Source: Desulfobacterales bacterium (lineage in GTDB: Bacteria; Desulfobacterota; Desulfobacteria; Desulfobacterales; Desulfosalsimonadaceae). Taken from it: a stretch of DNA of 32,349 nucleotides. The notes under the pieces were generated by a model. The model was given only the letters and a program-made list of their open reading frames with translations, did not search any database and was not told where the DNA came from. The stretch lies in the NCBI GenBank assembly GCA_018399235.1, contig JAGYOX010000024.1, positions 1 through 32,349 on the forward strand. Reading direction: 5' to 3'. The position numbers and the translations under genes were made by a program. Positions 5,799-29,602 of this stretch are shown one piece after another (the first letter of the stretch is position 1; each line of letters begins with the position of its first letter).

Positions 5799-5804
5799 GT
5801 TTTC

Positions 5805-6161
5805 CTAGTTTTCATAAAGTGTCTTCTCGAGCCACTCCCGCACCCGTCCTTCTACGGCATAAACTCCCTTATTATGGCCTACTGAGTCCAAAAACCATTC
5901 CTTGATGTCCGCCGGCATTCTAATTTTGGCCATTTCCTCGGCAGCCTCGGAATTTCGGCGGATCAGATAGATCACCGGCTCGGCATCCCAAGCGTAGACA
6001 ACAAAATAATTGGAAAAATCCGCCTTTGATCTGATGACACGCCCGTGGGCCCAGTTATTTCCCCACTCCAGATAAAGCGTTACCGCCTCTTCCGGGGTCA
6101 TTTCCCAATCAATTGAACTGATCAGGTCTTTTTGCTTTTTAAGCTCTTCTATATGCATCAT
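5805..6161 (-). CDS. Small conserved protein, possibly DVU0772 family
   Basis: A 118-residue soluble protein. The N-terminal segment IDWEMTPEEAVTLYLEWGNN, with a following Trp/His/Arg-rich stretch, resembles a small protein family I associate with sulfate reducers (DVU0772 of Desulfovibrio). This rests on memory and needs a search. There is no cofactor motif and no cysteine. GAGGGGGG precedes the first ATG. Only 6 bp separate its stop from the GTG of the YyaL-like gene, so the two are one transcript and this is probably its first gene. If the family assignment holds, it supports a sulfate-reducing host. Confidence 0.65.
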   Translation of the reverse strand: MMHIEELKKQKDLISSIDWEMTPEEAVTLYLEWGNNWAHGRVIRSKADFSNYFVVYAWDAEPVIYLIRRNSEAAEEMAKIRMPADIKEWFLDSVGHNKGVYAVEGRVREWLEKTLYEN

Positions 6162-6273
6162 TTTGAACCCCCCTCTAAACTAAGCGTTTAAAAATGTTTT
6201 GCAAACGTCACAGAACAGTAATGCACTATTTGTGCCAAAACCATTGGCGACGAGACCGTTCGTGAAATTATGC

Positions 6274-6292
6274 GCTGTATAAATCATACAGC
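6274..6292. promoter_or_regulatory. Inverted repeat upstream of the 5805-6161 gene
   Basis: GCTGTAT-AAATC-ATACAGC is a perfect 7-bp inverted repeat with a 5-bp spacer, 113 bp upstream of the first gene of the minus-strand block. It could be an operator, or an RNA hairpin if transcribed. No T-run follows directly, so I do not call it a terminator. Confidence 0.35.
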
Positions 6293-6308
6293 ATAAGGCT
6301 TAGGGGTG

Positions 6309-6371
6309 AGGTATAAGGTACAGGGTTTAGGGCGTAAGGTTTAAGGTATAAGGTTTAGGGTGTAAGGTTTC
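6309..6371. repeat. Degenerate heptamer array (9 copies)
   Basis: Nine back-to-back 7-mers of the form RGGYNTA: AGGTATA, AGGTACA, GGGTTTA, GGGCGTA, AGGTTTA, AGGTATA, AGGTTTA, GGGTGTA, AGGTTTC. A further degenerate unit or two lies just upstream. The G-rich strand is the plus strand here and the minus strand in the array at 61-110, so the two arrays are inverted with respect to each other. Confidence 0.8.
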
Positions 6372-6466
6372 AACCTTTATGCGTTCACACAAAAAAGCCC
6401 TGTAGGGTCGATAAGCAAAGTGCATCCACCAATTTCTGACCGGTTTACCCAAATTTGTGCAATCAA

Positions 6467-6552
6467 TGTAGTGGAAGGCTTTAGCCTTCCAGTGGACGCG
6501 TTTTGTTGCGCCGATCGATTCTGCGAATGGCAGGCTAAAGCCTGCCGCTACA
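6467..6552. repeat. REP-like inverted pair (BIME-type element)
   Basis: Left half: GTAG at 6468-6471 followed by the hairpin GGAAGGCT-TT-AGCCTTCC. Right half, on the opposite strand: the hairpin GGCAGGCT-AA-AGCCTGCC (6529-6546) followed by CTAC, the complement of GTAG (6548-6551). The outer 14 bases of the two ends match at 12 positions. GTAG next to a small palindrome is the known head of REP sequences mobilised by RAYT transposases, and two inverted copies form a BIME. No RAYT gene is in the window. Confidence 0.75.
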
Positions 6553-6648
6553 TGGTATTTGACATAGAATCTATTTTCAGGCTCGGTCCCGGCCCCAGCC
6601 CGAGGGGAAACAGTTCCAATCGATACCGGTATCTCTTCTACTAAGAAA

Positions 6649-6690
6649 TTTGATACACACTTACTTATTTTGATACATTTTTGTATCAAA
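6649..6690. promoter_or_regulatory. Operator-like palindrome plus extra half-site upstream of cooS
   Basis: TTTGATACA occurs at 6649-6657 and again at 6669-6677, 20 bp apart (two helical turns). The second copy forms a perfect palindrome with TGTATCAAA at 6682-6690 (4-bp spacer). The TTGAT...ATCAA ends look FNR-like, but the spacer is 10 bp where FNR has 4, and it does not fit the CooA site. It lies about 98 bp before the predicted cooS promoter, so an activator or a local repressor is possible. Confidence 0.5.
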
Positions 6691-6787
6691 TAATAGTTTC
6701 AAGTATGAACCCCTTTTTCAGTCCAAGATTAAGCCTTGCAGTTGAAAATATAACCATTTTAAAAAATTGTAAATATTTCAGTAAAGT

Positions 6788-6815
6788 TTGATTTCAGGGA
6801 ATATTAGTTTATATT
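6788..6815 (+). promoter_or_regulatory. Predicted sigma-70-type promoter of cooS
   Basis: A -35 box TTGATT (6788-6793) and a -10 box TATATT (6810-6815) are separated by 16 bp in an AT-rich stretch. Transcription would start near 6822, leaving an untranslated leader of about 100 nt before the cooS ATG. Confidence 0.45.
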
Positions 6816-6920
6816 ACATTGTGGCACATTATTTGTATGTCTATTAAAAGGAAGACACATGTGGATGGGTGGGGCCAGCCTGCATGTCATTTACAAAACC
6901 GCAAACAAAGAGGAGGATAT

Positions 6921-8903
6921 ATGCCAGACAAGACAAAAGACACGGGCAAGGACAAGACGGATAAAAAGCTTCTTGACCCCAGGGATGCGACCATTTGCGA
7001 GTCAACTGCGCAAATGCTCGAAAAAGCAAGGAGGGATGGAGTAGAAATCGCCTTTGACCGGGCGTCAACCATGAAAGCATGCCCCATCGGAGCGGATTCA
7101 GCATGCTGCAAACACTGCTCAATGGGGCCCTGCCGGCTTAACGCCAAGGATCCATACAGCAAAGTCGGTGTATGCGGCGCGACCATTGATACCATTATGG
7201 CCAGAAACTTTGCCAGGATGGTAGCCTCAGGCGCTTCCGCCCACACAGACCATGGAATGTCCATGCTGGATGTTTTCCGTGACGTAGTTGACGGCAAAAT
7301 TCCGGATTACCAGGTCAAAGATGTCATAAAACTTGAAGCCGTTGCTCGCTCCGTAGGCATCGAGATTGAGGGCAAAGATCAGAAGGAAATCGCCAAGGAA
7401 CTATACAAAGAGCTTGAACGCACCTATACGCAGGTTGACGGCGAAATTCCGTTTATGAAGCGGGTGCCTAAAAAAACGCTGGAAACCTGGCGAAAGCAAG
7501 GTATTGTCCCCAGGGGCGCCATGCGGGAAATCATGGAGCTGATGCATCGGACACACATGGGGGTTGACCAGCATTATGAGAACATCACCCGTCAATGCAG
7601 CCGAACTGCCCTGTCAGACGGCTGGGGCGGCTCCATGGTGGCCACTGAAATTTCCGATATCCTCTATGGAACCCCGGTTCCGGTAGCAGCGGATGTTAAC
7701 ATGGGCGTCCTGAAGGAGAACATGGTCAATATCATCGTTCATGGTCATGAGCCCAACCTGTTTGAATCCATGCTCGAATCGGTCAATGAGCCCACGCTTG
7801 TGGAGGCGGCAAAAGCGGCCGGAGCAGACGGAATCAACCTTGTGGGGATGTGCTGCTCAGGGGCGGAAATGATGTCCCGCCACGGCATACCGCATGCCGG
7901 CAATTTCATGTCGACAGAGGCGGTCCTCGTGACCGGCGCTGTTGACGCCATGGCAGTGGATGTCCAGTGCATCAAGCAGGGGCTTGCCAAGGTTGCGGAA
8001 TGTTATGGCACTTATCTGTTTACCACCAACCCGCGCTGCCATATTGAAGGGGCTCAGCATCTTGAATTTCATGAGCACAGTCCCAAGGAAACTACGGATG
8101 AAATCGTAATTCAATCGATTTCCCGGTTTAAAAACAGGAAAATGCCGATTGACATACCGCAGATAATAAACACGGGTATACACGGATTTTCTCATGAATA
8201 CATCAACTATATGCTTGGCGGGTCATTCCGGGGCAGTTACACGCCACTCAATGAGAATATCATCAACGGTCGGATTCGCGGCGTTGCCGGCATCGTCGGC
8301 TGCACCAACCCCCGTGTAAAGCATGACTATGCACATGTTGAACTCGTAAAAGAACTGATAAAAAATGACGTCCTGGTGCTTCAGACCGGCTGCTCACAAA
8401 TATCTCTTGCAAAAGCCGGATTGCTGACACCCGAGGCGTCTCATCTCGCAGGTCCCGGGCTTCGTGAAGTCTGCGAAGCTGTTGGTATGCCGCCGGTACT
8501 CGGCATGGGTTCATGCGTTGACAACAGCCGTATACTTATCGCCGCCGCTGAAATGGTAAATGAAGGCGGCCTCGGTGAGAGCATAGCGGATTTGCCGGCT
8601 GCCGGGGCGGCCCCCGAATGGATGAGCGAAAAAGCCATTTCCATCGGCCACTATTTTGTGGCCTCAGGGGTTTATACGGTCTTCGGGGTCACCTTCCCCA
8701 TTGTTGAGGAGACCAAGTTTCATGAGCTCCTTTTCAACGGACTGGAGCAGCAGGGACTCGGAAAATGGGGTTTTTCGCCGGACCCGAAAGAAATGGCCCG
8801 GATGATGATCGCCCATATTGACAAAAAAAGAAAAGAACTCGGTATTGACAAAGCAAGGGAAGGCTTTCTTATGGATTTGGCCGACCGCCGCGAGTTCGCC
8901 TGA
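6921..8903 (+). CDS. cooS: Anaerobic carbon monoxide dehydrogenase catalytic subunit
   Basis: A 660-residue Ni-Fe-S CO dehydrogenase that oxidises CO to CO2 and passes electrons to ferredoxin. D- and B-cluster ligands follow the family spacing exactly: Cys54 and Cys62, then Cys63, Cys66, Cys71 and Cys85. C-cluster ligands are also visible: HGHEP (His near 276), GMCCSG (311-312), DVQC (350), VGCTNPR (461), QTGCSQ (491) and GMGSCVDNS (532). Lys571 in MSEKAISIGHYF matches the catalytic Lys. AGGAGG lies just before the ATG at 6921; the frame is open further upstream, but no such site is there. No cooC, cooF, hydrogenase or acetyl-CoA synthase gene adjoins it, so it is transcribed alone, with its own promoter and terminator. 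Confidence 0.97.
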   Translation: MPDKTKDTGKDKTDKKLLDPRDATICESTAQMLEKARRDGVEIAFDRASTMKACPIGADSACCKHCSMGPCRLNAKDPYSKVGVCGATIDTIMARNFARMVASGASAHTDHGMSMLDVFRDVVDGKIPDYQVKDVIKLEAVARSVGIEIEGKDQKEIAKELYKELERTYTQVDGEIPFMKRVPKKTLETWRKQGIVPRGAMREIMELMHRTHMGVDQHYENITRQCSRTALSDGWGGSMVATEISDILYGTPVPVAADVNMGVLKENMVNIIVHGHEPNLFESMLESVNEPTLVEAAKAAGADGINLVGMCCSGAEMMSRHGIPHAGNFMSTEAVLVTGAVDAMAVDVQCIKQGLAKVAECYGTYLFTTNPRCHIEGAQHLEFHEHSPKETTDEIVIQSISRFKNRKMPIDIPQIINTGIHGFSHEYINYMLGGSFRGSYTPLNENIINGRIRGVAGIVGCTNPRVKHDYAHVELVKELIKNDVLVLQTGCSQISLAKAGLLTPEASHLAGPGLREVCEAVGMPPVLGMGSCVDNSRILIAAAEMVNEGGLGESIADLPAAGAAPEWMSEKAISIGHYFVASGVYTVFGVTFPIVEETKFHELLFNGLEQQGLGKWGFSPDPKEMARMMIAHIDKKRKELGIDKAREGFLMDLADRREFA

Positions 8904-13586: not shown

Positions 13587-14462
13587 ATGGCTATTTATCG
13601 AATCGCTGACAAATGCGATCTATGTATGCGGTGTGTAAACGATTGCATATCCGGGGTCTGGCAAATAAAGGAGGGAGAACCGACGCCGGTTCTCCCTGAG
13701 CTTTGCAACCGATGCAGTCATTGCGTGGCAGTGTGCCCGAATGCGGCCATCAACCATGATCACCTGGACCTGGATCAGGTCCGTCCCATTGATAAAAAAT
13801 ATATTGACCCGAATACCTGCCGGGAAACCATCGTAACCCGGCGCAGTGTACGGCAATATTTAAAAAAACCGGTCAGCGTTGCGGTAATAAAAAATATCCT
13901 CGACCTGGCCAGATATTCCCCCACTGCGAGCAATAGCCAGCATGTGGAGTACATCGTTGTCACCGATCCCGCCTGCTTGAAGTCGATTTCAGAGAAGGTA
14001 TTTGCCATTGGCAGGCGCATTAATGATTGGTCCAAGACCCGGCCCGGGAAAATGGTTTTCCGCGGATTAAAGCTATATCCGGCAATGGCCCGGCTCTTCG
14101 AAAAATATATCGATCCGATGGATGCCTATATCGAGCAGAAAAACGCCGGCCGAGATCTTATCCTTCACCACGCACCGGTGCTGATCCTTATTCATGCCCC
14201 GGTTCGATCATTTTTTGGAAGCGCCAACTGCAATATCGCAGCGGCAAACATTATGAATTACGCCCATTCGTTAGGACTTGGGACCTGCATGCTAGGCTTT
14301 GTCACCTTGTCCAGCCGTTTCAATAAGTCCCTTAATCAACTGGTCGGATTGCCGGAAAAACGAAAAATCCATGCCAGCCTGGTCCTGGGTCACCCCAAAT
14401 ATGAATACACCCATACGGTTTCCAGAAAGGGGCCGCCTGTAACATGGCTGGTTAAAAAATAA
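13587..14462 (+). CDS. Ferredoxin-domain nitroreductase (type 1)
   Basis: A 291-residue fusion. Residues 10-20 (CDLCMRCVNDC) and 40-50 (CNRCSHCVAVC) give an 8Fe-type 2x[4Fe-4S] ferredoxin domain, and from about residue 80 there is a nitroreductase domain (TRRSVRQYLKK, YSPTASNSQHVEYIVV, IMNYAHSLGLGTCMLGF). The iron-sulfur domain can feed electrons from ferredoxin or another donor to the FMN site; the substrate is unknown. An insertion around residues 150-190 carries a basic stretch. The gene is divergent from the second DUF364-like gene and is followed 22 bp later by the anchored hydrolase, probably in one transcript. Confidence 0.88.
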   Translation: MAIYRIADKCDLCMRCVNDCISGVWQIKEGEPTPVLPELCNRCSHCVAVCPNAAINHDHLDLDQVRPIDKKYIDPNTCRETIVTRRSVRQYLKKPVSVAVIKNILDLARYSPTASNSQHVEYIVVTDPACLKSISEKVFAIGRRINDWSKTRPGKMVFRGLKLYPAMARLFEKYIDPMDAYIEQKNAGRDLILHHAPVLILIHAPVRSFFGSANCNIAAANIMNYAHSLGLGTCMLGFVTLSSRFNKSLNQLVGLPEKRKIHASLVLGHPKYEYTHTVSRKGPPVTWLVKK

Positions 14463-14484: not shown

Positions 14485-15456
14485 ATGAAACAAAAAAGTT
14501 TTAAATCTATCATAGCGGCGGCTGTTATCCTATTAACTTGCGGTTTAATCGTTCTATACTATGTATCTCCGGACTGGCTGGCCCGCTCTGCCATTTCAAT
14601 TGAACGATGCAAGGCTGGGCTGAAAAAACGCTCGCTGACCGTTGATAATACGCACTTTGTATATCTTACAGGGGGCAGTGGTCCGGACATGGTTTTGCTG
14701 CATGGATTCGGCGGCAATAAGGATAATTTTACCCGAATGGGAAATTATTTATCAAACGATTACCAAATTATTATACCCGACCTACCCGGTTTTGGCGAAT
14801 CGGCTAGGGATTCGGCTTGGGACTATTCCATTTCTTCGCAGGTTTCAAGACTCCATAAATTTATCAAAGCGCTGGATATTGAATCTTTTCACCTGGCAGG
14901 AAATTCCATGGGCGGGGGGATTGCCGCCGCATACGCGGTTAGACACCCCCAGCGGGTGAAAAGTGTTTTGCTTTTGGCCCCGGGACATGTCAGCAGCGCG
15001 CCGCCTTCAGAACTATTTCAAATGCTGGAGAAGGAAAAAAATCCGTTTTTAGTAAAAAATCTTAAGGACTACAAAAAGCTGTTGGATATGCTCTTTTTCG
15101 AGATTCCGTTTATTCCGCGTCCGATAAGCATCTACTTCGCTGAAAAAATGATAGAGGACCGCGAATTTCTCCAACAGGCGATTGTTGACGTAAGGACGAA
15201 TTTCTATGCGGTAGAAAAACATATCCTGAAATACCCGGGACCCGTCATGGTCGTGTGGGGGGCTCAGGACCGCGTGCTTCATCCCAAAGGGGCAGAAATC
15301 CTGGCGAATAAAGCCTCCCGAATAAAAAAAGCCATTATTGACGACTGCGGCCATTTGCCGATGATTGAAAAGCCCAAACAAACGGCCCGCATCTATAGGG
15401 AATTCTTAAGGCATGGGGATTCACAGGGCGCTTTTCGCAAAACTCCAAATACATGA
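14485..15456 (+). CDS. Membrane-anchored alpha/beta hydrolase
   Basis: A 323-residue protein with an N-terminal hydrophobic helix (about residues 9-28, IIAAAVILLTCGLIVLYYV) after a basic start, so it is probably tethered to the outer face of the inner membrane. The alpha/beta-hydrolase domain has LLHGFGGNKDNF (oxyanion region), DLPGFGES, the nucleophile elbow LAGNSMGGG (Ser), VWGAQDRVLHP (Asp) and DDCGHLPMIEKP (His). It resembles lipase/esterase members of the fold. AAAGG precedes the ATG. Its last 36 bp overlap, on the other strand, the end of the duplicated-module gene. Confidence 0.87.
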   Translation: MKQKSFKSIIAAAVILLTCGLIVLYYVSPDWLARSAISIERCKAGLKKRSLTVDNTHFVYLTGGSGPDMVLLHGFGGNKDNFTRMGNYLSNDYQIIIPDLPGFGESARDSAWDYSISSQVSRLHKFIKALDIESFHLAGNSMGGGIAAAYAVRHPQRVKSVLLLAPGHVSSAPPSELFQMLEKEKNPFLVKNLKDYKKLLDMLFFEIPFIPRPISIYFAEKMIEDREFLQQAIVDVRTNFYAVEKHILKYPGPVMVVWGAQDRVLHPKGAEILANKASRIKKAIIDDCGHLPMIEKPKQTARIYREFLRHGDSQGAFRKTPNT

Positions 15457-16923
15457 ATCGTTTTTTTTCTTCGGCGGTTCGATATTTAGTCCCGAATCTC
15501 TGAGCCTATCGGCGACCATTCCGCACTGGCAGCAGAAGTATGGGACCCCCGCTTTTGAAAACGACCAAGCATGGCCGGCCTTTGTTTTACCCTGATCAAC
15601 GGGCTTTCTCTGGGTAAACAGGTGGACCATGATTGGAAATGTCCGTTCAATGATCGGCTCCGGGAGCGGCAAACGCCGAGACGCGGAACAGATTATCCGA
15701 TTTTCTGTTTTTTCTTTAAGCGCTACTAAAGGCGGCATAGGCGAATAGCAGCCCGCGCGTATCAGGCGGCCGCCGCTGCCGCACGGGGAAAGACGGAACA
15801 CAATCTTGTGTTCGGTCTCTTCAACCAAGAAGCTGCCCCCATATCGACCGGCGCCGTTGCAGATATCAACCCCGAAGACCTTTCTGGCCATAAAGACGAT
15901 TTTATTTCTTGCCGGCATGGCCTTTACAACATCGATGAGTTGGTTTTTGATGCAATGGGCGAACTGTTTTTCAAGGGCGGTTCCTAAACCCTCTTCACCT
16001 GTATGTTCGGCGATGAAGGTGAAGGTCGCGGCCAGCATATTGACATAAAGGTCATGGAGCACCAAGAACTCGCCCTCCACCTCATCACATAACCGCATGG
16101 CATTGGCCGCATTTCCCTGCCCAATATGGCGCATGATCCGGTCGGTGATCGGCTGCGCCATCTCTTGAAGCTCCTGTTCTGAAAAATACCTCCGGCCCGG
16201 TTGGTAAAACCGGCTTCTTGGGACCGGCTTTTTTTTAATGCCCAAACGATCATAATAGGATGACGGAATCCGGTTCCTATCCTTGTAAATATGCCAGGCA
16301 CAGGTATCATCGGGATTTTTAGGAGGGTCCACCGGCCAAAGAAGGGTGCCGTAGTCTGATTCATAGGGGAGTATCTCGTTTAAAAACGGACAATGGATGC
16401 AATAATAGGGAAACTGTTCCCGCTGGTAGGTCCAGGAACGGGCGGTTTCTGTAAGTTTACCCGCGGCTTCATGCCCGTACCAGCCCTTGCGCCACAGCCG
16501 CAGCCCGCTGCCGCAGGGGGCCAGCTGAAAGGTAAACTTTTCATCATCTTCGGATATCGAGAACCGGCCGGGATGGTCGCCCGCACCATAGCAGCTGTGG
16601 GCCCGCCAGGATCTGGCAAGCAGTATGACCGACAGATGCGGGGGCGCATCCGCGCAGGCGGCATCAAAAAACTGGCGCCGGCCGGCATGATGAAAAACAT
16701 AGCGGAACATGGCCTCTATGACATCTTCTCCCATCTTCTCGCCGACCCAGCTCCAGAGCACGGTACAGGACTCGGCGAAAAAGTCATGAAGAATAACTTG
16801 TGAGTTTTTCAATTCACTGCATAGGCCGAGCGCTCTTTCAAAATCCATTTTTCGAAGAGATCTACGAATAAGCAAGGGATAGGGGATAGAAAGATCCTTC
16901 AGTTCGTGTGCCGAAAAAAGCAT
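15421..16923 (-). CDS. Unrecognised protein of two tandem Cys-rich modules
   Basis: A 500-residue soluble protein whose two halves are copies of one module. Matching pairs are HDFFAE (46) and HDLYVN (290); CYGAG (111) and CNGAG (355); LAPCGSGLRL (134) and LSPCGSGGRL (378); FPYYCIHC (171) and VPYFCCQC (460); DPPKNPDDTCAW (199) and EPPKKKNDSCIW (482). The CxGAG to PCGSG distance is 25 residues in both, while the second copy has about 45 extra residues before its Cys pair. The conserved Cys/His set suggests metal binding. I cannot name a family with certainty. The ATG at 16923 has GAGG before it; a GTG at 16935 would overlap the previous stop. It is the last gene of the acyl-CoA operon, so a role on a CoA thioester is likely. 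Confidence 0.75.
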   Translation of the reverse strand: MLFSAHELKDLSIPYPLLIRRSLRKMDFERALGLCSELKNSQVILHDFFAESCTVLWSWVGEKMGEDVIEAMFRYVFHHAGRRQFFDAACADAPPHLSVILLARSWRAHSCYGAGDHPGRFSISEDDEKFTFQLAPCGSGLRLWRKGWYGHEAAGKLTETARSWTYQREQFPYYCIHCPFLNEILPYESDYGTLLWPVDPPKNPDDTCAWHIYKDRNRIPSSYYDRLGIKKKPVPRSRFYQPGRRYFSEQELQEMAQPITDRIMRHIGQGNAANAMRLCDEVEGEFLVLHDLYVNMLAATFTFIAEHTGEEGLGTALEKQFAHCIKNQLIDVVKAMPARNKIVFMARKVFGVDICNGAGRYGGSFLVEETEHKIVFRLSPCGSGGRLIRAGCYSPMPPLVALKEKTENRIICSASRRLPLPEPIIERTFPIMVHLFTQRKPVDQGKTKAGHAWSFSKAGVPYFCCQCGMVADRLRDSGLNIEPPKKKNDSCIWSFAKSAL

Positions 16924-16931
16924 GGAGTGCC

Positions 16932-18035
16932 TCACAACGATTCTGCGACGACGCGGATTTGATGGTACGGATTCTGGCCGCCCAGTAGTTGAAGAATTTT
17001 TATATCCCGCATCATTTTTTCCAGACCGTATTCATGCATGTACCCGTATCCGCCATGGATCTGGATGGCATCCATCACCACCTCCATGGCGGCATCAGTA
17101 CAAAACGCCTTGACAAGCCGCGCATCTGCGGGAAAGTATGAAAAGTTTATCTTTTTTGGATCAAAAAGATTCATGTAGGCGGCGGTTCCCAGGCCCAGTT
17201 TCATCTGCATGGCACCCAGCATCCGCTGGATTTCCTGATGGTAAATAATTCTTTTGCCATACTGGTAGCGCTGTCTGGCATAGGAAAACGACGTTTCCAG
17301 TGCTTTTCGGGAAACGCCCATGGCCATGGCGGCGATAAATCCGTAATAGGCATTCTGAACGGAATCCATTAAGCCGCCGGCCACTTTTAAGCCTTCCACG
17401 ATCCAATCTTTTTCAATGAAAACGTCCGTAAACCGAACCTTTGCAAAGCAGTTGGCTTTAAGCCCCGGAAGTTTCAGGGGGTCATTTTTCTCAATCCCCG
17501 GCAGATCTTTTGGGACCCTCACCAAAACAGGATCCTTTTCCAGCGCCCCGTTTGGGATGATCCCGAAAAATGCATCAGCTATTTTTGCATTCCCGGCTAT
17601 CCCGGACTCTCCGGATATAACAATCCCCCCGCTTTTCTTATGTAAGTTTAAGCTTGACTCCCCCATTTCATCAGGAAACAGGATTGCCGCCGGCAAAGAT
17701 GGGTCGCCGGTAAAATATCCAAGAAATTTTTTATTGTTCGTTATGCAGGCGGCAACAGATGCCGCAAAGTGGTGAGCGAAAACCGATGCTACGCCGGCAC
17801 ACTCCGATGCCAGTACATCCAGAACAAGCGCCGCACATAGCTCTGGATAGCCGATCCCGCCAAAACGTTCCGGGACCAAAAGAACCGGAAGGTCCAGGGC
17901 ATGACTTTTCTGCCAGAGCGTTTCGAGCGTTTCGAGCGCCGGGACAAGATCCATATCCAACGCCAACGGCTGAATTTCCTTTTTGGCAAACCGCCGGCAC
18001 TCGGCGATGATTTCATTGTATTCCCGGGTTTCCAT
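16932..18035 (-). CDS. Acyl-CoA dehydrogenase family protein lacking the usual catalytic Glu
   Basis: A 367-residue protein of the acyl-CoA dehydrogenase fold: an N-terminal helical domain, a middle beta domain (about residues 115-215) and a C-terminal helical domain with RQRYQYGKRIIYHQEIQRML and the family block IQIHGGYGYMHEYGLEKMMRD. Where active dehydrogenases have K-I-T-Q-I-Y-E-G-T, this one has KILQLLGGQ, so the catalytic Glu is Gly352. No substitute Glu is obvious at the helix-G position used by isovaleryl-CoA dehydrogenase. It may be the non-catalytic half of a heteromeric enzyme with the neighbour 37 bp upstream, or use another base. Shine-Dalgarno sequence is weak. Confidence 0.85.
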   Translation of the reverse strand: METREYNEIIAECRRFAKKEIQPLALDMDLVPALETLETLWQKSHALDLPVLLVPERFGGIGYPELCAALVLDVLASECAGVASVFAHHFAASVAACITNNKKFLGYFTGDPSLPAAILFPDEMGESSLNLHKKSGGIVISGESGIAGNAKIADAFFGIIPNGALEKDPVLVRVPKDLPGIEKNDPLKLPGLKANCFAKVRFTDVFIEKDWIVEGLKVAGGLMDSVQNAYYGFIAAMAMGVSRKALETSFSYARQRYQYGKRIIYHQEIQRMLGAMQMKLGLGTAAYMNLFDPKKINFSYFPADARLVKAFCTDAAMEVVMDAIQIHGGYGYMHEYGLEKMMRDIKILQLLGGQNPYHQIRVVAESL

Positions 18036-18072
18036 TTTTTTCTACCGACCTTGGCATTCTCTAAAAAACACC

Positions 18073-19530
18073 TTAAAATAAATTCTCCTCGTTTGGAAAA
18101 GCATGCTTGAAGATGTCTATCCTGTTGGCCTGGTTGGTACCTTCATAGATCTGGGTGACTTTGGCATCCCGGAATGATTTTTCAATCCCGTATTGGCGGT
18201 CCATCCCCTCAATACCCACGATATCCGCCACTCTGCCTGCCACCGCGGCGGCCAGATCCGTACCGGCCACCTTAACCATTGATCCGTAGTAAACGAAATT
18301 TTCAATCACCTCGTCCGGTACCAACCGGTGCTTCAGCCGGCTTCCGGCTTTCTTGATGAATCCTGAACGGGCCAGGGAGTAAAGCGACTCGCTGAGCAGA
18401 AAACGCTCGGGGGTTACTTTCAATCCGGCTTTCAGCGGCAAAAGATCAAACAGTTTCCAGGCATGACAGGCATCCAGGGCCAGGGCAAAGTTGATACCGG
18501 CGCACCTGACGCTGTTGATGTCCTTTATCATGTCGGCAAACGCCATCTGCACCCATTTTTCGTCAATCAACCGGCGGCTACCGATTTTTTTGTTCACCGC
18601 AAAATAAATTCCCCTTTCCAACGCGCCCCTGGCAATACCCAACCCACCAATGCCGATAAAACCGCGGGTAATGGATAGGATCTCCCGCGTATGGCGAAGT
18701 CCTCTGCCCGGTGGTTCCCACACGTTTTCATCGGGGACAAATACGTCTTTAAAATGAAGCTCTGCCGTCTGACTGGCTTTTTGGCCGCATTTGCGTTCCA
18801 CCCGAGCCACTGAAAACCCTTCTGATTCTGCCGGAATGAAGAAAGTAGCCATTGATTCCCTGGGTTGCCCAGGATCTGCCGGAATGGTGGCGATCACATA
18901 ATCGGCCAAGCTGCCGTTTGTAATAAAACACTTGGTGCCGTTTATCCGGTAGCCGCCATCAACTTGTTTCGCTTCTGTTGAAGGCTGCATGGCCGCCATG
19001 GCTTCCCCGTCTTCTACATCCGTGCCGGCACTGGGTTCGGTAATGGCCCACGACCAGAAAAGCTGTTTTTCCTGACGCTGGGCATGCACCATCTTATGAA
19101 TAATGTTTAAAATGATATCGGTTTGGCACTCTACCATAGCGCCCAGCAAACCAAAGGTATTGAACGTGATATTGCTTGCGCATCCCATGCAGGCGCTGGT
19201 CAGCTCTTCAACCAAAAAAGCGTTTGCCAGCGCACTCCAGCCAAGACCGCCCATTTTTTCCGGAATCGGGGCAATGTTCAGTTTTAGCCGATTGGCCTGC
19301 CGCCACAGCTCCCAGTCAAAATGGGTCGGGTCTTCCGCGCACGCCGCATCAATTTCCAAAAACCGCGGCAAAATCTCATCCCTTGCAAATCTCCGGGCCA
19401 GTGTCTGTGCGGCTTCCGCCTGGGCGATATATTTCGGACTGACCGTTTTCAACCTGACAAGGCCGGGCAAGGATTCAAGCACATCCGGTGCCGGGGCATG
19501 CAGACCTAAACAGAAATTCTGGTTTTCCAT
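18073..19530 (-). CDS. Acyl-CoA dehydrogenase, long form
   Basis: A 485-residue acyl-CoA dehydrogenase. Motifs include WSWAITEPSAGTDVEDGE (FAD/substrate region), YRINGTKCFITNGSLADY, RKCGQKASQTAELHFKDVFVP, and the C-terminal FRDAKVTQIYEGTNQANRI with the catalytic Glu463. It is about 100 residues longer than usual, owing to an N-terminal extension and an insertion of some 65 residues (about 360-425, LLPLKAGLKVTPERFLLSES onward) before the last helices, where the usual GGYGY is replaced by VGIEGMDRQYG. The ATG at 19530 lies 7 bp after the ligase stop; the frame is open to 19590 but would overlap the ligase gene. It oxidises an unknown acyl-CoA, probably passing electrons to ETF. Confidence 0.92.
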   Translation of the reverse strand: MENQNFCLGLHAPAPDVLESLPGLVRLKTVSPKYIAQAEAAQTLARRFARDEILPRFLEIDAACAEDPTHFDWELWRQANRLKLNIAPIPEKMGGLGWSALANAFLVEELTSACMGCASNITFNTFGLLGAMVECQTDIILNIIHKMVHAQRQEKQLFWSWAITEPSAGTDVEDGEAMAAMQPSTEAKQVDGGYRINGTKCFITNGSLADYVIATIPADPGQPRESMATFFIPAESEGFSVARVERKCGQKASQTAELHFKDVFVPDENVWEPPGRGLRHTREILSITRGFIGIGGLGIARGALERGIYFAVNKKIGSRRLIDEKWVQMAFADMIKDINSVRCAGINFALALDACHAWKLFDLLPLKAGLKVTPERFLLSESLYSLARSGFIKKAGSRLKHRLVPDEVIENFVYYGSMVKVAGTDLAAAVAGRVADIVGIEGMDRQYGIEKSFRDAKVTQIYEGTNQANRIDIFKHAFPNEENLF

Positions 19531-19537
19531 GGCGCGG

Positions 19538-20905
19538 TCAAGCCTCGTAGGTTTTTTCCAGAAGCTGGGTCTTCTTGGTGGCCCGCTCAAGGGTATGGGG
19601 GGCTAGCCAGGTAATCGCCGGCCGAATTTTCAAAAGCCGATGCATTTTTTCCTGCACCTCGGCTTCAAGACCGGGCAGGTCTCCCTTACCTACCCCCTCG
19701 GCGTGTTCGATTTTTAATTTAAGCGGCGGCACCACCCGGGGCGGCGGTTCATCAAGAACGATACGAAATGCGCCGGTCAGTTTTTCCGGAAAGGAATGAA
19801 TCACGCCCTCCACTGCCGCCGGATAGACCGGCACGCCCTTGACCTTCAGCATATCGTCGGCCCGTCCCACGATCTTGTAACGAAACCCGCTCATACCGCA
19901 TGGGCAAGGATCGGTAAACACCTGATGGATGTCCATCATGGTAAATCGCATATCAAACCACGCAGCCGCCTCCGGATGCAGGGAGGTGCCCGCCATGATA
20001 CCGGTCGCCCCGTTTTCCATAGGCACGGGCTTTCGGGTCTCCGGATCGATAAGCTCGTAATAGGCCAGGTCATCCGCCAGCCAGTGCATACCCTGGTATA
20101 CTGGATGATCGCAGGAGCACCCGTAACCGGCTCCAAGATCGAACACCCGCGCCCCGTATTCGGTTTCAAGCTTTTTCCTGACCTCCGGAATCCCGGCGCC
20201 TGGCTCAGCGCCAAGCATTAAAATCCGGATACCCAGATCTTTTACCGGATGGGACAGAACTTCCGGGCACTTTTCGATCAGATGAAGGGCCAGCGAAGGG
20301 GTGCCGGTAAATACTGTCACACCGAAAAGCTTCATAAACTGCAAAATTTTCTCCGTACCCGCCTCGGCGCCGATGGGAACGATGGTGATACCCGGATAAT
20401 TTTCGAACCAAAGGATCTGCGGCGTGCCTGCGGCGTGCATGGAAAGACCGAAACAAAGCCCGATTCGGTCACCCGCCCGAATGCCCATTCGCCAGGCCGC
20501 TCTTGACATAATTTCCCTGGCATCTCCGAGCGCCCCCCGAAAATTGGGATAGGGCGTCGGGATGCCTGTCGTGCCGGAGGTGGTTGTCAAAAGATATAGA
20601 TCGGACATCCGTTTTTCGCCAAACACATGGGTCATCAGTTTATCCATATCAAATCCGATCTCGGATATAATCTCCCGGATTTCCTCCTGCCCGACGGGCG
20701 CGATGGCCTCTGCAAAATCAGAAAAACTGTTGATATCCTCCGGTGTAATACCGGCTTTTTCAAACCGCCTGCGGTTAAACGGGGTGTTTTCATACTGCCA
20801 CCTAAGAGCTTCCTTAAGCCGTTTCCACTGCAGTTCCCTGATATCCGGGCTATTCAGTTTCGGCTCGATATCCATATTCCAGTATTTTCTGTCCGATGCT
20901 GCCAT
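19538..20905 (-). CDS. Phenylacetate-CoA ligase family acyl-CoA synthetase (PaaK-like)
   Basis: A 455-residue member of the adenylate-forming superfamily closest to PaaK-type ligases. N-terminal PaaK-like region (YENTPFNRRRFEKAGITP), P-loop TTTSGTTGIPTPYPN (about 107-121), LGAEPGAGIPEVRK, and the C-terminal hinge CPCGMSGFRYKIVGRADDMLKVKGVPVYPAAVE. It converts a carboxylic acid, ATP and CoA to an acyl-CoA. PaaK-like enzymes accept aryl and cyclic acids among others, so the substrate need not be phenylacetate. It sits 10 bp downstream of the thiolase and 7 bp before the long dehydrogenase, clearly one operon, and should provide the CoA ester for it. GGGGGAG precedes the ATG. Confidence 0.92.
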   Translation of the reverse strand: MAASDRKYWNMDIEPKLNSPDIRELQWKRLKEALRWQYENTPFNRRRFEKAGITPEDINSFSDFAEAIAPVGQEEIREIISEIGFDMDKLMTHVFGEKRMSDLYLLTTTSGTTGIPTPYPNFRGALGDAREIMSRAAWRMGIRAGDRIGLCFGLSMHAAGTPQILWFENYPGITIVPIGAEAGTEKILQFMKLFGVTVFTGTPSLALHLIEKCPEVLSHPVKDLGIRILMLGAEPGAGIPEVRKKLETEYGARVFDLGAGYGCSCDHPVYQGMHWLADDLAYYELIDPETRKPVPMENGATGIMAGTSLHPEAAAWFDMRFTMMDIHQVFTDPCPCGMSGFRYKIVGRADDMLKVKGVPVYPAAVEGVIHSFPEKLTGAFRIVLDEPPPRVVPPLKLKIEHAEGVGKGDLPGLEAEVQEKMHRLLKIRPAITWLAPHTLERATKKTQLLEKTYEA

Positions 20906-20915
20906 TTACTCCCCC

Positions 20916-22139
20916 TTATTTCTTAAATATATGGACTGCCATAGCCGCCGCATCCACACCTAAAATTCCGCCCCCATTATGGGCCATTCCGACCTTTGGA
21001 CCGTTTACCTGGCGCTTGCCGGCATCTCCCCTGAGCTGCTGAACGATCTCGTGGACCTGCCCCAGCCCGGTAGCCCCGATCGGATGCCCCTTTGAAGCAA
21101 GCCCGCCGGATGTATTGGTGGGCAGTCGACCGTTTATCTCCATAGACCCGTTGTCAATCCAATGACCGGCTTCATCTCCGGGGCACAAATTGAGCTCGAT
21201 CAGGGTAATGATCTCGGATGGCGAGGTGGCATCATGCACCTCGATAACGTCAATTTCATCGGGACCGATTCCCGCCTTTTCAAAGGCTTTCGGTCCAAGC
21301 CGGCGGGTTAAGGTATCCGACATATCATTGCCCAACTGCCCGCTGCCCAACACAGAGGCTGCGACCCATACCGGTTGGCTGGTGAATCGGGCGGCCATTT
21401 GCTTTGAACAGATCACGGCGGCCGCTGCCCCGTCCCCTATGGGAGAGCACATCATGCGGGTTAGTGGATATGCAACCTCTCCGGAATCAAGTACCTCTTC
21501 GAGGGTCACTTCCTTTTGATACTGGGCGTGTGGATTATTTGCGCCGTTTTTGTGGCTTTTAACCGAAATTTTGGCAAAATGCGTCTGGGTCAATCCATAT
21601 TTTTCCATGTATCGGCGGGTGTAATAGGCATACATATCCATGAAGATGCTTCGGTTTTTACCGCTGCCTTTTGAAAATATCTCTCCGCCATCCGTCTGGT
21701 CGTTTTGAAGGTCTTCCAAAAATTTGGTGATGACCTCAACGTCCACGGCCGTGCCAAGCGCCATGAATGACTTCAACTTGTCTTTATCATATAGCTTTTC
21801 GAATCCCGCCACAAGAACACAATCATACAATCCGGCCGCCACCGCCATCCATCCAAGGTGCAACGCAGTGGAAGAACTGGCACAGGCGTTCTCCACATTC
21901 ACCATGGGGATACGCTCAATGCCCATGGCGCTTAGGGTCACCTGAGCCTTTATCATCTCCTGGCCGGTCATTATCCCCGGAGCGGCGCTCCCGACATAGG
22001 CGGCCTCAATGTCTGAGATGGAAATGCCGGCATCATCTATCGCATTCACAACCGACTCCCGGACCAGCTCCTTTATTCCCGTATCCAAAAATTTTCCAAA
22101 CCGCGTCATGCCGACACCGATTACCGCCACGTCCCGCAT
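20916..22139 (-). CDS. SCP2-type thiolase family protein
   Basis: A 407-residue thiolase-fold protein of the SCP2/archaeal acetyl-CoA C-acetyltransferase type. The nucleophile is in VENACASSSTAL (Cys86). His residues lie in EVHDATSPSEI and GGLASKGHPIGATGLGQ. The C-terminal site is AHNGGG, where classical thiolases have CxG, so it lacks the second active-site Cys. Relatives are either thiolases working with a DUF35 zinc/OB-fold partner or retro-aldolases such as Ltp2 in steroid side-chain degradation; no DUF35 gene is present here. AAGGAG is 6 bp before the ATG at 22139, so that start is preferred to the ATG at 22145. It is the first gene of the operon behind the shared operator. Confidence 0.88.
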   Translation of the reverse strand: MRDVAVIGVGMTRFGKFLDTGIKELVRESVVNAIDDAGISISDIEAAYVGSAAPGIMTGQEMIKAQVTLSAMGIERIPMVNVENACASSSTALHLGWMAVAAGLYDCVLVAGFEKLYDKDKLKSFMALGTAVDVEVITKFLEDLQNDQTDGGEIFSKGSGKNRSIFMDMYAYYTRRYMEKYGLTQTHFAKISVKSHKNGANNPHAQYQKEVTLEEVLDSGEVAYPLTRMMCSPIGDGAAAAVICSKQMAARFTSQPVWVAASVLGSGQLGNDMSDTLTRRLGPKAFEKAGIGPDEIDVIEVHDATSPSEIITLIELNLCPGDEAGHWIDNGSMEINGRLPTNTSGGLASKGHPIGATGLGQVHEIVQQLRGDAGKRQVNGPKVGMAHNGGGILGVDAAAMAVHIFKK

Positions 22140-22249: not shown

Positions 22250-22265
22250 TTGACTGTATAGTCAA
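22250..22265. promoter_or_regulatory. Operator O1, upstream of the thiolase operon
   Basis: TTGACTGTATAGTCAA, a perfect inverted repeat with 6-bp arms and a 4-bp spacer. The same sequence with one spacer change is at 23368-23383. On the minus strand its outer arm TTGACT can act as a -35 box, with TTTTAT (22242-22237) 17 bp away as a weak -10. A protein bound here would block this promoter, as expected for a TetR-type repressor. Confidence 0.75.
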
Positions 22266-23367: not shown

Positions 23368-23383
23368 TTGACTGTAGAGTCAA
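23368..23383. promoter_or_regulatory. Operator O2, upstream of the ferredoxin-nitroreductase
   Basis: TTGACTGTAGAGTCAA, identical to O1 except for one spacer base. It lies in the 165-bp divergent region, 56 bp before the ferredoxin-nitroreductase ATG. Its left arm TTGACT can be the -35 box, with TATTAG (23391-23396) 17 bp away as a possible -10, the same arrangement as at O1. From this position it could also control the regulator gene. Confidence 0.75.
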
Positions 23384-23439: not shown

Positions 23440-24477
23440 ATGCTGTTTGAAAAACATCGCTTTGTTTCGCTGCCACCGGCTACCTATGCCCGTTTTGTGC
23501 TGGATGAAACAAAATGTACCGGCTGCGGCCGGTGCGTTAAAACCTGCCCGATACAGCTTCTTACGCTGGATAATGGCAAAGCCCGGCCAAATGATCGATA
23601 TGACAGTTTCCGCTGCATTACCTGCCAAAACTGCGCCTCGGTTTGTCCAGAGGGTGCCATCCGGATTGAGGGCACCTACCGGGTCAGCAAAGGGTATTGG
23701 AAAAATGACCATCTTTACAGCGGAGAAAAGACGACTCCGGAACCGCTGCCAAAATACAAAGACAAGCCATTCGATGACTTTGCCTATGAACTGACCGAAA
23801 CCGAGCGGGTCATTTACAACCGCCGCAGCATTCGCCTATACAGGAAAAAACAGGTGCCAAAAGAAATGGTCCGTCGTGTTATCGAGGCCGGTCGATTTGC
23901 CCCGTCCGCCGGAAACAACCAACCGTGGAAATTTATAGCAGTTCAGAACCGGGAGGTTATCGATGAAATCAATCAGAAGTGCAAAAATTTCATAAAAATC
24001 ATCATGCGGGGGACCATGCCGAAACAATGGCTTGAAAAAAGAGTTCCCGGCGATAAAGACGCCAAACTTTCCTTCGGCCAAACCTTGCTGACGAATCTCC
24101 TGATCAGATGGCGGGCCGGCGAACTCGATCCCCGCGCGCGAGGCGGCATGAATACCGTCACCAGCGATCCGGACTATGACATTTTTCTGGGCGCGCCCAC
24201 GCTTATCATTCTGCTCGCAGACAAACGCGGCATCGGATCCATTGATTTGGACACAGGGATCTGCGCCCAGAACATGGTTCTGGCCGCCCATTCACTGGGA
24301 CTTGGCACCTGTTATATCGGACTGATCGATGGGTTGATGATGTATCCGAACTACCGTGAAAAACTCGGCATCACGCCACCGTTTGAGATCGTGACAGCCC
24401 TCACCCTCGGCTACCCCCAGGGCCGGATTGACAAGATTGTTTCCCGGGAGCAGGCCAGAATCAAATGGGTTGAATAA
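23440..24477 (+). CDS. Ferredoxin-domain nitroreductase (type 2)
   Basis: A 345-residue fusion. Two [4Fe-4S] sites, CTGCGRCVKTC (Cys26-36) and CITCQNCASVC (Cys59-69), precede a nitroreductase domain from about residue 125 (YNRRSIRLYRKKQVP, APSAGNNQPWKFIAV, NMVLAAHSLGLGTCYIGL). Compared with the type-1 protein at 13587 it is longer, with an insertion around residues 190-250 carrying GTMPKQWLEKRVPG and a Arg-rich stretch. I chose the ATG at 23440, where GAGGTGG stands 8 bp upstream; the frame is open to 23341 but would include the operator. The shared operator links it to the acyl-CoA operon, so it may reduce an unsaturated or ring intermediate, or recycle electrons. Confidence 0.88.
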   Translation: MLFEKHRFVSLPPATYARFVLDETKCTGCGRCVKTCPIQLLTLDNGKARPNDRYDSFRCITCQNCASVCPEGAIRIEGTYRVSKGYWKNDHLYSGEKTTPEPLPKYKDKPFDDFAYELTETERVIYNRRSIRLYRKKQVPKEMVRRVIEAGRFAPSAGNNQPWKFIAVQNREVIDEINQKCKNFIKIIMRGTMPKQWLEKRVPGDKDAKLSFGQTLLTNLLIRWRAGELDPRARGGMNTVTSDPDYDIFLGAPTLIILLADKRGIGSIDLDTGICAQNMVLAAHSLGLGTCYIGLIDGLMMYPNYREKLGITPPFEIVTALTLGYPQGRIDKIVSREQARIKWVE

Positions 24478-27982: not shown

Positions 27983-28255
27983 TTAAGCCGGCGGTTTCCG
28001 GAAGGTTTTCTGATCATCATCATAAAAATAGGACAAACGCTCACGATTTTTTCTCGGAACCCCTTTAAATATCCACATGTATTTTCGAACGGCTGCCGGC
28101 CAAGAACCCTCTATTTCTTTTAAATTCTGGGTGATCTGGAGCCAAAGCTGAAACTCCCTGGACATGCCCGGCAATTGGCGAGGCCCTATATTGGCCTGTT
28201 TTAACGCCTTCCAGCTTTTCCAAAACACATCGAACTTTTGTTTAAACGGCTTCAT
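27983..28255 (-). CDS. Small basic protein of unknown function
   Basis: A 90-residue basic protein (many Lys/Arg and Trp: KPFKQKFDVFWKSWKALKQ, LWLQITQNLKEIEGSW, RKNRERLSYFYDDD). No membrane segment, Cys or known motif. The ATG at 28255 overlaps the end of the DUF2284 gene by 14 bp and has AGG at 8 bp spacing in that gene, so translation is probably coupled. I do not recognise it. Nucleic-acid or lipid binding would fit its charge, but this is only a guess. Confidence 0.55.
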   Translation of the reverse strand: MKPFKQKFDVFWKSWKALKQANIGPRQLPGMSREFQLWLQITQNLKEIEGSWPAAVRKYMWIFKGVPRKNRERLSYFYDDDQKTFRKPPA

Positions 28256-28949
28256 TTTTTTTCCTATTAACAAGAACAATCCCCATCAGGCTCCCCCTTG
28301 GAACGGTGTCCGGTTCGCATGTCCCGCCGATGGGATAATGATCCCAGCCAACCCGCGCCGCCATTGTATAAGCATCCATTCCGCAGGACTCCATGGAAAA
28401 TGCGCTTAGATCCGGATTCCGACAGCCCTTGGAGCTCACCAAGCGCTGGCAGACAGGCTGTAAAAAACAGAACGGATCCTTACAGTTGCCTGCTCCGAAC
28501 CCATACGCGCCATAACCGGCCTGACGGGCGTATTTCTCCAGAACCTTGATAATGGTAAAAACCAGGATGTAGTTGCCCCCGAGATTCATCAGGTTGCCTT
28601 TTTTATCGGCAAGCCCCTGTTCTATCGCCTCATGGATGCCTGCGGCGGCGATAATTTTACTATCGACTTTGACACGGAAAAAAACGCCCAGTTCATATTC
28701 GGCAACAAGATCCTTTACTTCTCTCACTGAAAGCCCGTGTGGCGGACAATGGGCACATCCCCCCGACATATAGCACTTCGGAATCATGCATTTAAACCGG
28801 ACGCGCGGGTCAACAATAACATCTGAGGCCGGGATAATAACCGCTTCGTCCGCCCCATGGTCTATTGCTGATTTTCTGAGAAATTCGACATCTTCATTTT
28901 TCAAGGGATTGGCCTCGCCCTGTTTAAGAGCGGTAGTATCGGATTTCAT
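28242..28949 (-). CDS. DUF2284 metal-binding protein
   Basis: A 235-residue protein with the DUF2284 pattern. N-terminal Cys54, Cys59, Cys65 and Cys68 are in CMIPKCYMSGGCAHCPPHG, and a C-terminal cluster lies in GAGNCKDPFCFLQPVCQRL and GCRNPDLSAFSMESCGMDAY. Such Cys-rich proteins are annotated as putative metal-binding or iron-sulfur proteins, common in anaerobes. No biochemical role is established. AAGGA precedes the ATG. It lies 17 bp after a second DUF2284 gene and is overlapped by the small basic gene at its 3' end. Confidence 0.88.
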   Translation of the reverse strand: MKSDTTALKQGEANPLKNEDVEFLRKSAIDHGADEAVIIPASDVIVDPRVRFKCMIPKCYMSGGCAHCPPHGLSVREVKDLVAEYELGVFFRVKVDSKIIAAAGIHEAIEQGLADKKGNLMNLGGNYILVFTIIKVLEKYARQAGYGAYGFGAGNCKDPFCFLQPVCQRLVSSKGCRNPDLSAFSMESCGMDAYTMAARVGWDHYPIGGTCEPDTVPRGSLMGIVLVNRKKNEAV

Positions 28950-28966: not shown

Positions 28967-29602
28967 TTAGTGGATCATGACCAGTCCTCCCAAAAACGGG
29001 ACGGGCTTTAACGGAACTTCCCAGTTTAATGCCCCTGCCATAGCTCGGGCATCAATACCTGCGGCTTCCATCGAAGGGCGGCCAATATTCGGACGAATGC
29101 AGGTTTGCCCCTTCAACGTTGCCCGGCATCGTTTTTCATCCGGGCAAAAAACGCTCCGACAGTTGCCTGAAGCCAGACCAATGGCCAGGTGGTAGCCCAT
29201 ATAAAAGGCCGAAGATTCGATGATGGTGACGATTTCGTAGGTTCTGATATAACGCTGCCGATGCTCCAGCTCAGCTATTGGACCGCCGCCGTATGCAGGA
29301 ATGGTATTGTCCGGGGGCAGCTGAAAAAAAACAGCCCATTTATAGGTATCAATCGTCTCGTTCAAATCATCCTTGGGATAATCCAGCGGCCAGTGAATTG
29401 ACGGCAGCCGGTTATCAGCCTCAACCTGCCTTAGGATATCCGGGTTGAATACAATCTCATCCCTGGTAATAACCGCACAATCAGCGGCACCTGCAGACAG
29501 ACCTTTATTGCGGAGGTATTCCAGATCGGTTTCTAGCTGCTGGGGATCGATCCGGGTAGGGATACGACGGACAATCTCGGGTTTGAAGGAAAGCTTGATC
29601 AT
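28967..29602 (-). CDS. DUF2284-like protein without the N-terminal cysteines
   Basis: A 211-residue paralogue of the following gene. The C-terminal half keeps the Cys-rich block (GNCRSVFCPDEKRCRATLKG, then CIRPNIGRPSMEAAGIDAR). Of the N-terminal site only the frame remains: over 22 aligned residues all four Cys are replaced (by Pro, Gln, Arg and Ser) and CPPHG becomes SIHWP. It may be the non-metal or regulatory partner of a heterodimer. TAAGGAGT precedes the ATG. It is the first gene of the DUF2284 pair; the upstream 133 bp separate it from gpmA. Confidence 0.82.
   Translation of the reverse strand: MIKLSFKPEIVRRIPTRIDPQQLETDLEYLRNKGLSAGAADCAVITRDEIVFNPDILRQVEADNRLPSIHWPLDYPKDDLNETIDTYKWAVFFQLPPDNTIPAYGGGPIAELEHRQRYIRTYEIVTIIESSAFYMGYHLAIGLASGNCRSVFCPDEKRCRATLKGQTCIRPNIGRPSMEAAGIDARAMAGALNWEVPLKPVPFLGGLVMIH

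Follow-up and report, generated by a model that had tools for sequence, protein, structure and literature searches.

We examined the 32,349-nucleotide contig JAGYOX010000024.1 of a Desulfobacterales bacterium (assembly GCA_018399235.1), hereafter the window, and found that it encodes five closely packed genes, thl-lig-acd1-acd2-mod, for a thiolase, an acyl-CoA ligase, two acyl-CoA dehydrogenases (ACADs) and a two-module protein of an undescribed family. From this gene content we tentatively propose an inducible operon for the degradation of a carboxylic acid, in which the middle chemistry may be performed by a heteromer of the two ACADs together with the two-module protein. As judged from its genes, the operon is a conserved variant of a familiar acyl-CoA pathway type, and the mod family is new to the reference libraries. 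The window is the entire contig C157 of a draft genome (G000; 3.47 Mb, 299 contigs, 92.8% complete).

The five-gene array and its dehydrogenase pair

A first-pass annotation of the window had described five genes in a tight one-strand array, without a hydratase, a hydroxyacyl-CoA dehydrogenase or a DUF35 protein. Five minus-strand open reading frames (ORFs) were indeed found, separated by 10, 7 and 37 bases and finally overlapping by 4 bases (Table 1). An AAGGAG sequence precedes the ATG of thl at 22139; the start of acd1 (ATG 19530) was picked from the ORF reading, and a clear ribosome site was not seen there. We ran 30 window ORFs against Pfam, out of 98 with at least 80 amino acids, most of the others being overlapping frames. 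Hydratase, 3-hydroxyacyl-CoA dehydrogenase and DUF35 families were not matched among these 30 ORFs. The families that had been assigned to thl, lig and the two ACADs agree with both Pfam and NCBIfam; the NCBIfam matches listed for these four proteins are all under the cut-off, and their superfamilies are known.

The same annotation had suggested looking for the five-gene set elsewhere, and the linkage proved to be conserved. Six short mod peptides were used to scan the species-genome collection, which yielded 21 loci, a lower bound. Counting the window, two-module proteins of this type are encoded at 14 loci (the window and L012-L024). At 11 of these 14 loci acd1, acd2 and mod are adjacent, and all five genes are present at six: the window, L012 (with lig split), L013, L014, L015 and the Actinomycetota locus L020. 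Going by record titles, the cassette occurs in Desulfobacterota and Actinomycetota. Since L017, L018, L019 and L024 start at or near a contig end, missing upstream thl and lig genes are uninformative at these loci. Among 98 relative genomes, mod matches (E 0.001) were found in five, as two-module proteins in G000, G004, G009 and G016 and as a single-module protein in G080; G009 also contains a single-module gene besides its two-module protein. Orthologs of acd1 (E 1e-80) also occur in five of the 98 genomes, G000, G004, G009, G016 and G032, the contig of the last stopping 0.9 kb after the start of acd2. Six genomes contain lig orthologs (at least 76% identical); in the sixth, G028, whose 3-kb contig stops just past lig, acd1 was not found. 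The split lig of L012 (2574-3906, G009:C139) appears as two ORFs in the assembly, through either a sequencing error or a pseudogene. Within the cluster of L015 lies a gene (1220-2968) for an epimerase/3-beta-hydroxysteroid-dehydrogenase-like protein with a C-terminal 4Fe-4S part. By similarity, L155 encodes a likely ortholog (5271-7022), and L018 apparently encodes its two halves as separate genes (5563-7372).

Residues of the ACADs were compared at the 11 loci with an acd1-acd2 pair. ACAD1 retains the catalytic Glu at all of them (YEG, or FEG in L019; YEGT in the window), together with the flavin adenine dinucleotide (FAD) motif TE-x-x-x-GTD (TEPSAGTD, with ITNG, in the window). In contrast, ACAD2 contains Gly, Leu or Pro at the aligned position, never Glu or another acidic residue (0/11), and has lost the FAD motifs TEP and ITN throughout. 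The middle domain of the window's ACAD2 scores 18 bits against a Pfam cut-off of 33.3. Adjacent genes with one subunit devoid of Glu and FAD motif, the hallmark by which we recognize heteromeric ACADs, were found at 11/11 loci. By its residues acd1-acd2 is an example of the heteromeric-dehydrogenase pattern, as the first-pass annotation had it, and the two proteins would form a complex, which in heteromeric ACADs is an alpha2beta2 assembly with shared FAD sites. ChsE1-ChsE2 and PimC-PimD, which we take to be heteromeric acyl-CoA dehydrogenases, likewise pair a Glu-bearing with a Glu-less ACAD gene. They differ from the window pair by the long insertion in its ACAD1, and the PimC and PimD models of NCBIfam match weakly, far under cut-off (acd1-PimC E 3.5e-11, acd2-PimD E 6e-10). 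About 70 extra residues of acd1 lie within the C-terminal dehydrogenase domain. The operon offers a compact, predicted heteromeric ACAD from an anaerobe.

Thiolase, ligase and the two-module protein

The ENACASSS motif of thl aligns with the nucleophilic Cys of solved thiolases. The second Cys, which had been reported missing, is lacking at both usual places: HDAT replaces HDCF, the loop with the canonical SCP2-thiolase Cys, and NGGG replaces CxG. In the PDB, thl matches SCP2-thiolase (6hsj, E 6e-69), BbsB (7pxp, E 4e-56), 5m3k (E 2.5e-27) and 6ok1 (E 9e-27); the last is labelled 'lipid-transfer protein' in the match table, and we take it to be Ltp2. The residue set of thl (Cys, HDA, GHP, no second Cys) is that of BbsB, which reads HDAF. 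BbsB belongs to BbsAB, the benzoylsuccinyl-CoA thiolase of the anaerobic toluene pathway; the window operon differs in lacking a gene for the DUF35 subunit BbsA, and thl scores higher against SCP2-thiolase 6hsj. Thiolases with HDAT were found at 14 loci (the window, L012-L015, L020, L074, L154-L156, L158 and L160-L162), and all adjoin or sit one gene from a PaaK-like ligase, a linkage that is biased because seven of the 14 loci were fetched via the ligase. The L078 thiolase has HDAS and adjoins another ligase type.

The best PDB match of lig is 2-hydroxyisobutyryl-CoA synthetase (6hdw, E 7e-39). Its NCBIfam matches of PaaK type fall far below cut-off (TIGR02155, PaaK: 133 bits against 646). 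At L074 and L120, PaaK-thiolase genes stand beside genes for an RND transporter and a BNR-repeat protein. At L157 a PaaK gene has the same neighbors, with an old yellow enzyme (OYE) gene nearby. This setting is a hint of hydrophobic substrates.

The genome contains a paralog operon (L158; G000:C255, 1055-8374) with the same kinds of PaaK ligase, HDAT thiolase, nitroreductase and ferredoxin as the window (51% identity for PaaK, 47% for the thiolase, 40% each for the nitroreductase and ferredoxin pieces). In contrast to the window, it also encodes an enoyl-CoA hydratase (ECH)-family protein, a short-chain dehydrogenase/reductase (SDR) and one ordinary ACAD, and contains neither mod nor acd2. By gene content the window operon reads as this paralog cassette minus ECH and SDR, plus acd2 and mod. 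Since the HDAT thiolase occurs here with an ordinary hydratase and SDR, the thiolase type alone is not a sign of unusual chemistry. Another product of the paralog operon is a 132-amino acid protein that has no match in Pfam but, inspected by eye, resembles SCP2. G000 contains five matches to PF01796 (DUF35), none of them on the window contig: those on C5, C256 and C24 are beside other thiolase-superfamily genes, and the two on C226 are a few genes away from one.

Neither Pfam-A nor NCBIfam contains a match for mod. Sequence searches of the PDB gave at best E 0.35 with the window protein and 0.077 with a module profile; both matches were taken as chance. Eleven module sequences produced only stray weak Pfam matches, in one member each (best E 0.011), and six relatives a single NCBIfam match (E 0.11). 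Three annotated records list the module protein as 'hypothetical', and a literature search found no paper on the operon or the module family. These searches bear out the view that the operon is undescribed. Duplication of the module was also recognized correctly: its halves share 27% identity, and each keeps four conserved cysteines. All of 56 modules compared contain Cys141, Gly144, Cys179 and Lys218, and at least 90% contain His50, Asp51, Gly69, Glu129, Cys182 and Cys212. With four conserved Cys per module, a metal site in mod is plausible.

A profile of the module detected relatives in 20 of 395 sampled phylum genomes (E 1e-6). By record title, the family also occurs in Actinobacteria, Chloroflexi, Oceanobacillus, Endozoicomonas and others, and it is present in Rhodococcus jostii RHA1. 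Module genes are often close to acyl-CoA genes. At 30 other module loci, the genes within 8 kb encode SDR (15 loci), ACAD (13), ECH (10), FadD-type ligase (8), lipoamide dehydrogenase (7), OYE (6) and thiolase (6). These neighbors were named from sequence, some loci share a genome, and L075, L081 and L082 are of another tandem-module type. A function for the module family would help to annotate many catabolic clusters together. The relative in R. jostii (WP_011600302.1; L180, 13965-14732) lies on plasmid pRHL3 in a 2-oxoacid-dehydrogenase-like catabolic cluster with genes for ACAD, E1 alpha, E1 beta, E2, alcohol dehydrogenase, LpdA, SDR, an AMP-binding protein (ligase), TetR and ECH; an IS3 element separates the alcohol dehydrogenase gene from the module gene. 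Unlike the window mod, this protein has a single module and other partners, and comes from an aerobe. On two other Rhodococcus plasmids, genes of the glutamine synthetase family adjoin the gene for a relative (27% identical to the L026 query), so that the module context is not always acyl-CoA. Single-module genes at L063, L064, L065 and L067 adjoin LipB-like genes, with LipA-like genes beyond at three of the four (all named by eye). At L063, L064 and L067, lipoamide dehydrogenase and two ACADs are nearby, making this a recurrent lipoyl-linked cluster with a module gene. An apparent 905-amino acid module fusion (L071) was rejected as read-through of a GC-rich frame, its N-terminal part having no Pfam match.

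A structural model of the N-module was confident (pLDDT 95.1, pTM 0.88) and shows a helical bundle with few strands. A single-sequence AlphaFold prediction of whole mod (pLDDT 34.5) was discarded. Upon structural re-alignment of the N-module model, the first 19 rows, consisting of TRAPP subunits, BcsD and phenol sensors, gave Z 4.6-6.4 over 129-153 residues. TRAPP subunits reached at most 6.4, BcsD 5.8, the sensors PoxR, DmpR and MopR 4.0-4.9, and YslB 3.9; histidine kinases (3.3-3.7) and H-NOX (at most 3.6) occupied lower rows. TRAPP, V4R and H-NOX belong to one superfamily, which makes chance a less likely source of this ranking. According to the model, the N-module faintly resembles TRAPP/V4R ligand-binding folds. 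Pfam V4R (PF02830) matched neither mod nor the module sequences. The weak fold alignment extends to V4R/TRAPP/H-NOX proteins such as DmpR, MopR and PoxR, which sense phenol and contain a Zn site. These sensors and the module have in common Cys metal ligands (putative in the module) and an end strand with a C-x-aromatic motif. They differ in ligand set, with four Cys in the module against three Cys plus a Glu, and in setting, the module being encoded in catabolic operons and the sensors being regulators. The Zn ligands of DmpR are Cys151, Glu172, Cys177 and Cys185 (PMC7264223), and phenol is placed between His and Trp (PMC7264223, PMC10715001).

Predicted operator and regulon

The palindrome TTGACYNNNNRGTCAA occurs at two sites in the window, where 0.02 would be expected. 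It was also found in L012, L013, L015, L017, L154 and L155, and was not found in L014, L016, L018, L019, L020 or L024. One of the window sites overlaps a promoter-like -35 box upstream of the regulator gene, in a stretch with 8 promoter-like matches against 4.1 expected (standard deviation 2.2). The regulator consists of two DNA-binding domains, MerR then TetR, and its orthologs adjoin the operon at several loci. We infer that this hybrid protein represses via TTGACYNNNNRGTCAA operators, and that the regulon consists of two units, the five-gene operon and the divergent ferredoxin-nitroreductase gene. Because the regulator and the nitroreductase share the operator with thl, the system exceeds the interval 15421-22139 originally outlined, which stands as the operon and is too narrow as the system.

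We searched for the operator in ten genomes, five with and five without the operon. The operon genomes contain 12 matches, of which 8 lie at this locus, all intergenic, and 4 lie elsewhere, all within unrelated ORFs; the genomes without the operon contain 11. The candidate sites on C79 and C239 of G000 and on C243 and C319 of G009, all within ORFs, were judged to be chance matches. The first-pass annotation had named hydratase and DUF35 genes elsewhere in the same regulon as the finding that would speak against an unusual pathway. By operator search in G000, none of these genes is preceded by the operator, the two extra matches lying within unrelated ORFs. The operator and the regulon make the substrate question testable.

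Table 1. Positions of predicted features in the window
Feature	Position	Strand	Remarks
thl, SCP2/BbsB-type thiolase	20916-22139	-	ENACASSS Cys nucleophile, HDAT, GHP, NGGG; Thiolase_N and Thiolase_C_1
lig, PaaK-like AMP-forming acyl-CoA ligase	19538-20905	-	AMP-binding_C_2; PDB match 6hdw
acd1, acyl-CoA dehydrogenase with FAD motif and catalytic Glu	18073-19530	-	
acd2, degenerate acyl-CoA dehydrogenase without catalytic Glu or middle-domain FAD motifs	16932-18035	-	
mod, two-module protein of undescribed family, 504 aa	15421-16935	-	
mod N-module	16198-16935	-	Cys141, Cys179, Cys182, Cys212
mod C-module	15424-16239	-	Cys385, Cys468, Cys471, Cys495; 27% identity to N-module
Regulator, MerR helix-turn-helix fused to TetR_N helix-turn-helix	22387-23274	-	Pfam; orthologs adjoin operon in other loci
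Fer4-nitroreductase fusion, putative regulon member	23440-24477	+	Divergent; ATG 23440, ORF opens 23341
Predicted operator TTGACYNNNNRGTCAA upstream of thl	22250-22265		
Predicted operator TTGACYNNNNRGTCAA between regulator and nitroreductase	23368-23383		Overlaps promoter-like -35
First DUF2284 protein of tandem pair, possible further member	28967-29602	-	55% relative in L017
Second DUF2284 protein of tandem pair	28242-28949	-	64-65% identical to L017 counterpart

Nine of the 14 two-module loci have a gene of the nitroreductase family no more than 8 kb away, counting L016, whose gene is only 23% identical to that of the window, and L022, which has no ACAD pair. At L016 and L017, two tandem DUF2284 genes are inserted between nitroreductase and acd1, and in L017 the operator lies upstream of the nitroreductase. 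The window contains such a pair, likewise ordered, whose members share 55% and 64-65% identity with the L017 pair and 47% and 61-62% with the L016 pair. It is located 3.8 kb past the nitroreductase, has no operator, and is separated from that gene by two exchanger genes and others. Judging from these similarities, the window pair may belong to the system. Two more nitroreductase genes are present on the contig: 13587-14462 codes for a Fer4-nitroreductase fusion that is 26% identical to the putative regulon member, and 2218-2859 for a plain nitroreductase.

Proposed pathway and its alternatives

In the pathway that we tentatively favor, the MerR-TetR hybrid would hold the operon off at TTGACYNNNNRGTCAA until induction. 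Lig would convert one carboxylic acid to its acyl-CoA, which the ACAD1:ACAD2 heteromer would dehydrogenate using the catalytic Glu and FAD motif of ACAD1. Mod, to which the first-pass annotation had tentatively given the missing step, would with its putative tandem metal-binding ligand-pocket modules bind and probably convert the ACAD product. Thl would then cleave the 3-oxoacyl-CoA so formed, using Cys-His-His catalysis like that of BbsB, and the ferredoxin-nitroreductase would handle electrons. A bolder version, which we regard as rather unlikely, places mod in a new family of metalloenzymes built on a TRAPP/V4R-like scaffold. This enzyme would replace the hydratase in a post-dehydrogenation step (hydration, ring or C-C conversion) during anaerobic degradation of cyclic or branched acids, would work with an obligate ACAD1:ACAD2 heteromer, and would have single-module relatives with related roles in several phyla, where they belong to ACAD, OYE and lipoyl-dependent clusters.

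Several observations weigh against the favored pathway. Foldseek, run with the N-module model against the PDB, gave nothing significant (best E 0.4, kinases first). All re-alignment Z scores, including the best (6.4), are under the level that the tool sets for a specific match, and hhalign aligned the module profile with V4R in register at a probability of 1.15, which is not significant. ACAD2 of L018 and L024 contains a Glu one place past the catalytic position. Two-module proteins occur without the ACAD pair at L021-L023. G077 and G062 encode PaaK proteins that are 60-62% identical, with an adjoining thiolase in G077, and contain no mod match at E 0.001. An ECH-family gene lies within 8 kb at 10 of the 30 other module loci, so that a hydratase role for the module is not general; it does so at 3 of the 14 two-module loci, namely those without the ACAD pair. 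G000 itself contains 14 ECH_1 matches, including the ECH of the paralog operon; none is in the operon, and they could act in trans. Finally, over all ten genomes the operator (23 matches) is not commoner than a reversed control pattern (30), so its position and not its number is telling.

The 14 ECH_1 genes favor an explanation that we consider less likely than this pathway. In it, the operon would serve ordinary beta-oxidation, hydratase and hydroxyacyl dehydrogenase would come from genes elsewhere, acting in trans, and mod would be only an accessory ligand-binding or carrier protein. This would agree with the paralog operon, where the thiolase subfamily adjoins ECH and SDR, with the SDRs and ligase in the L018 cluster, and with the epimerase-type NAD enzyme at L015 and L155 (in L155 by similarity only). 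In addition, most TRAPP- and V4R-like domains are non-catalytic. The absence of a regulon operator in front of any hydratase gene of G000 argues against this explanation, as does the lasting association of mod with the ACAD genes in two phyla.

We consider it improbable that mod substitutes for DUF35, acting towards the thiolase as BbsA does towards BbsB, namely as a Cys-rich partner that binds acyl-CoA. The BbsB residue set of thl, the lack of DUF35 in the operon and the two sets of four conserved Cys would suit such a role. However, a thiolase (63% identical) stands beside PaaK (61%) in G077 without a mod match, the HDAT thiolases of the paralog operon also do without mod, and mod adjoins acd2 (acd1 in L018) instead of thl. 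The modeled helical bundle is also unlike the zinc ribbon and OB fold that PMC2954200 gives for PF01796.

A biosynthetic direction, in which a Claisen-type acyltransferase, the ligase and the dehydrogenases would build a compound, is very improbable. The thl superfamily includes PhlC-type acylases (5m3k), and the second Cys is missing in thl. However, BbsB, which is degradative, contains the same residues and matches thl better, and the paralogs that include ECH and SDR genes look catabolic.

Least credible of all is the suggestion of the first-pass annotation that the operon resembles the ChsE1/ChsE2-Ltp2 type of steroid side-chain removal, here in an anaerobe. The lopsided ACAD pair would fit, and some lig and thl relatives (60-68%) are beside RND and BNR-repeat genes, which often accompany hydrophobic substrates. 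We set the analogy aside: Ltp2 and Sal are described in PMC12329534 with aldolase motifs YDHF and YDCY and, for Sal, with a Gly at the position of the nucleophilic Cys, whereas thl contains neither motif, has no DUF35 partner in the operon or nearby, keeps Cys, HDAT and GHP, and fits 6hsj and 7pxp far better than 6ok1.

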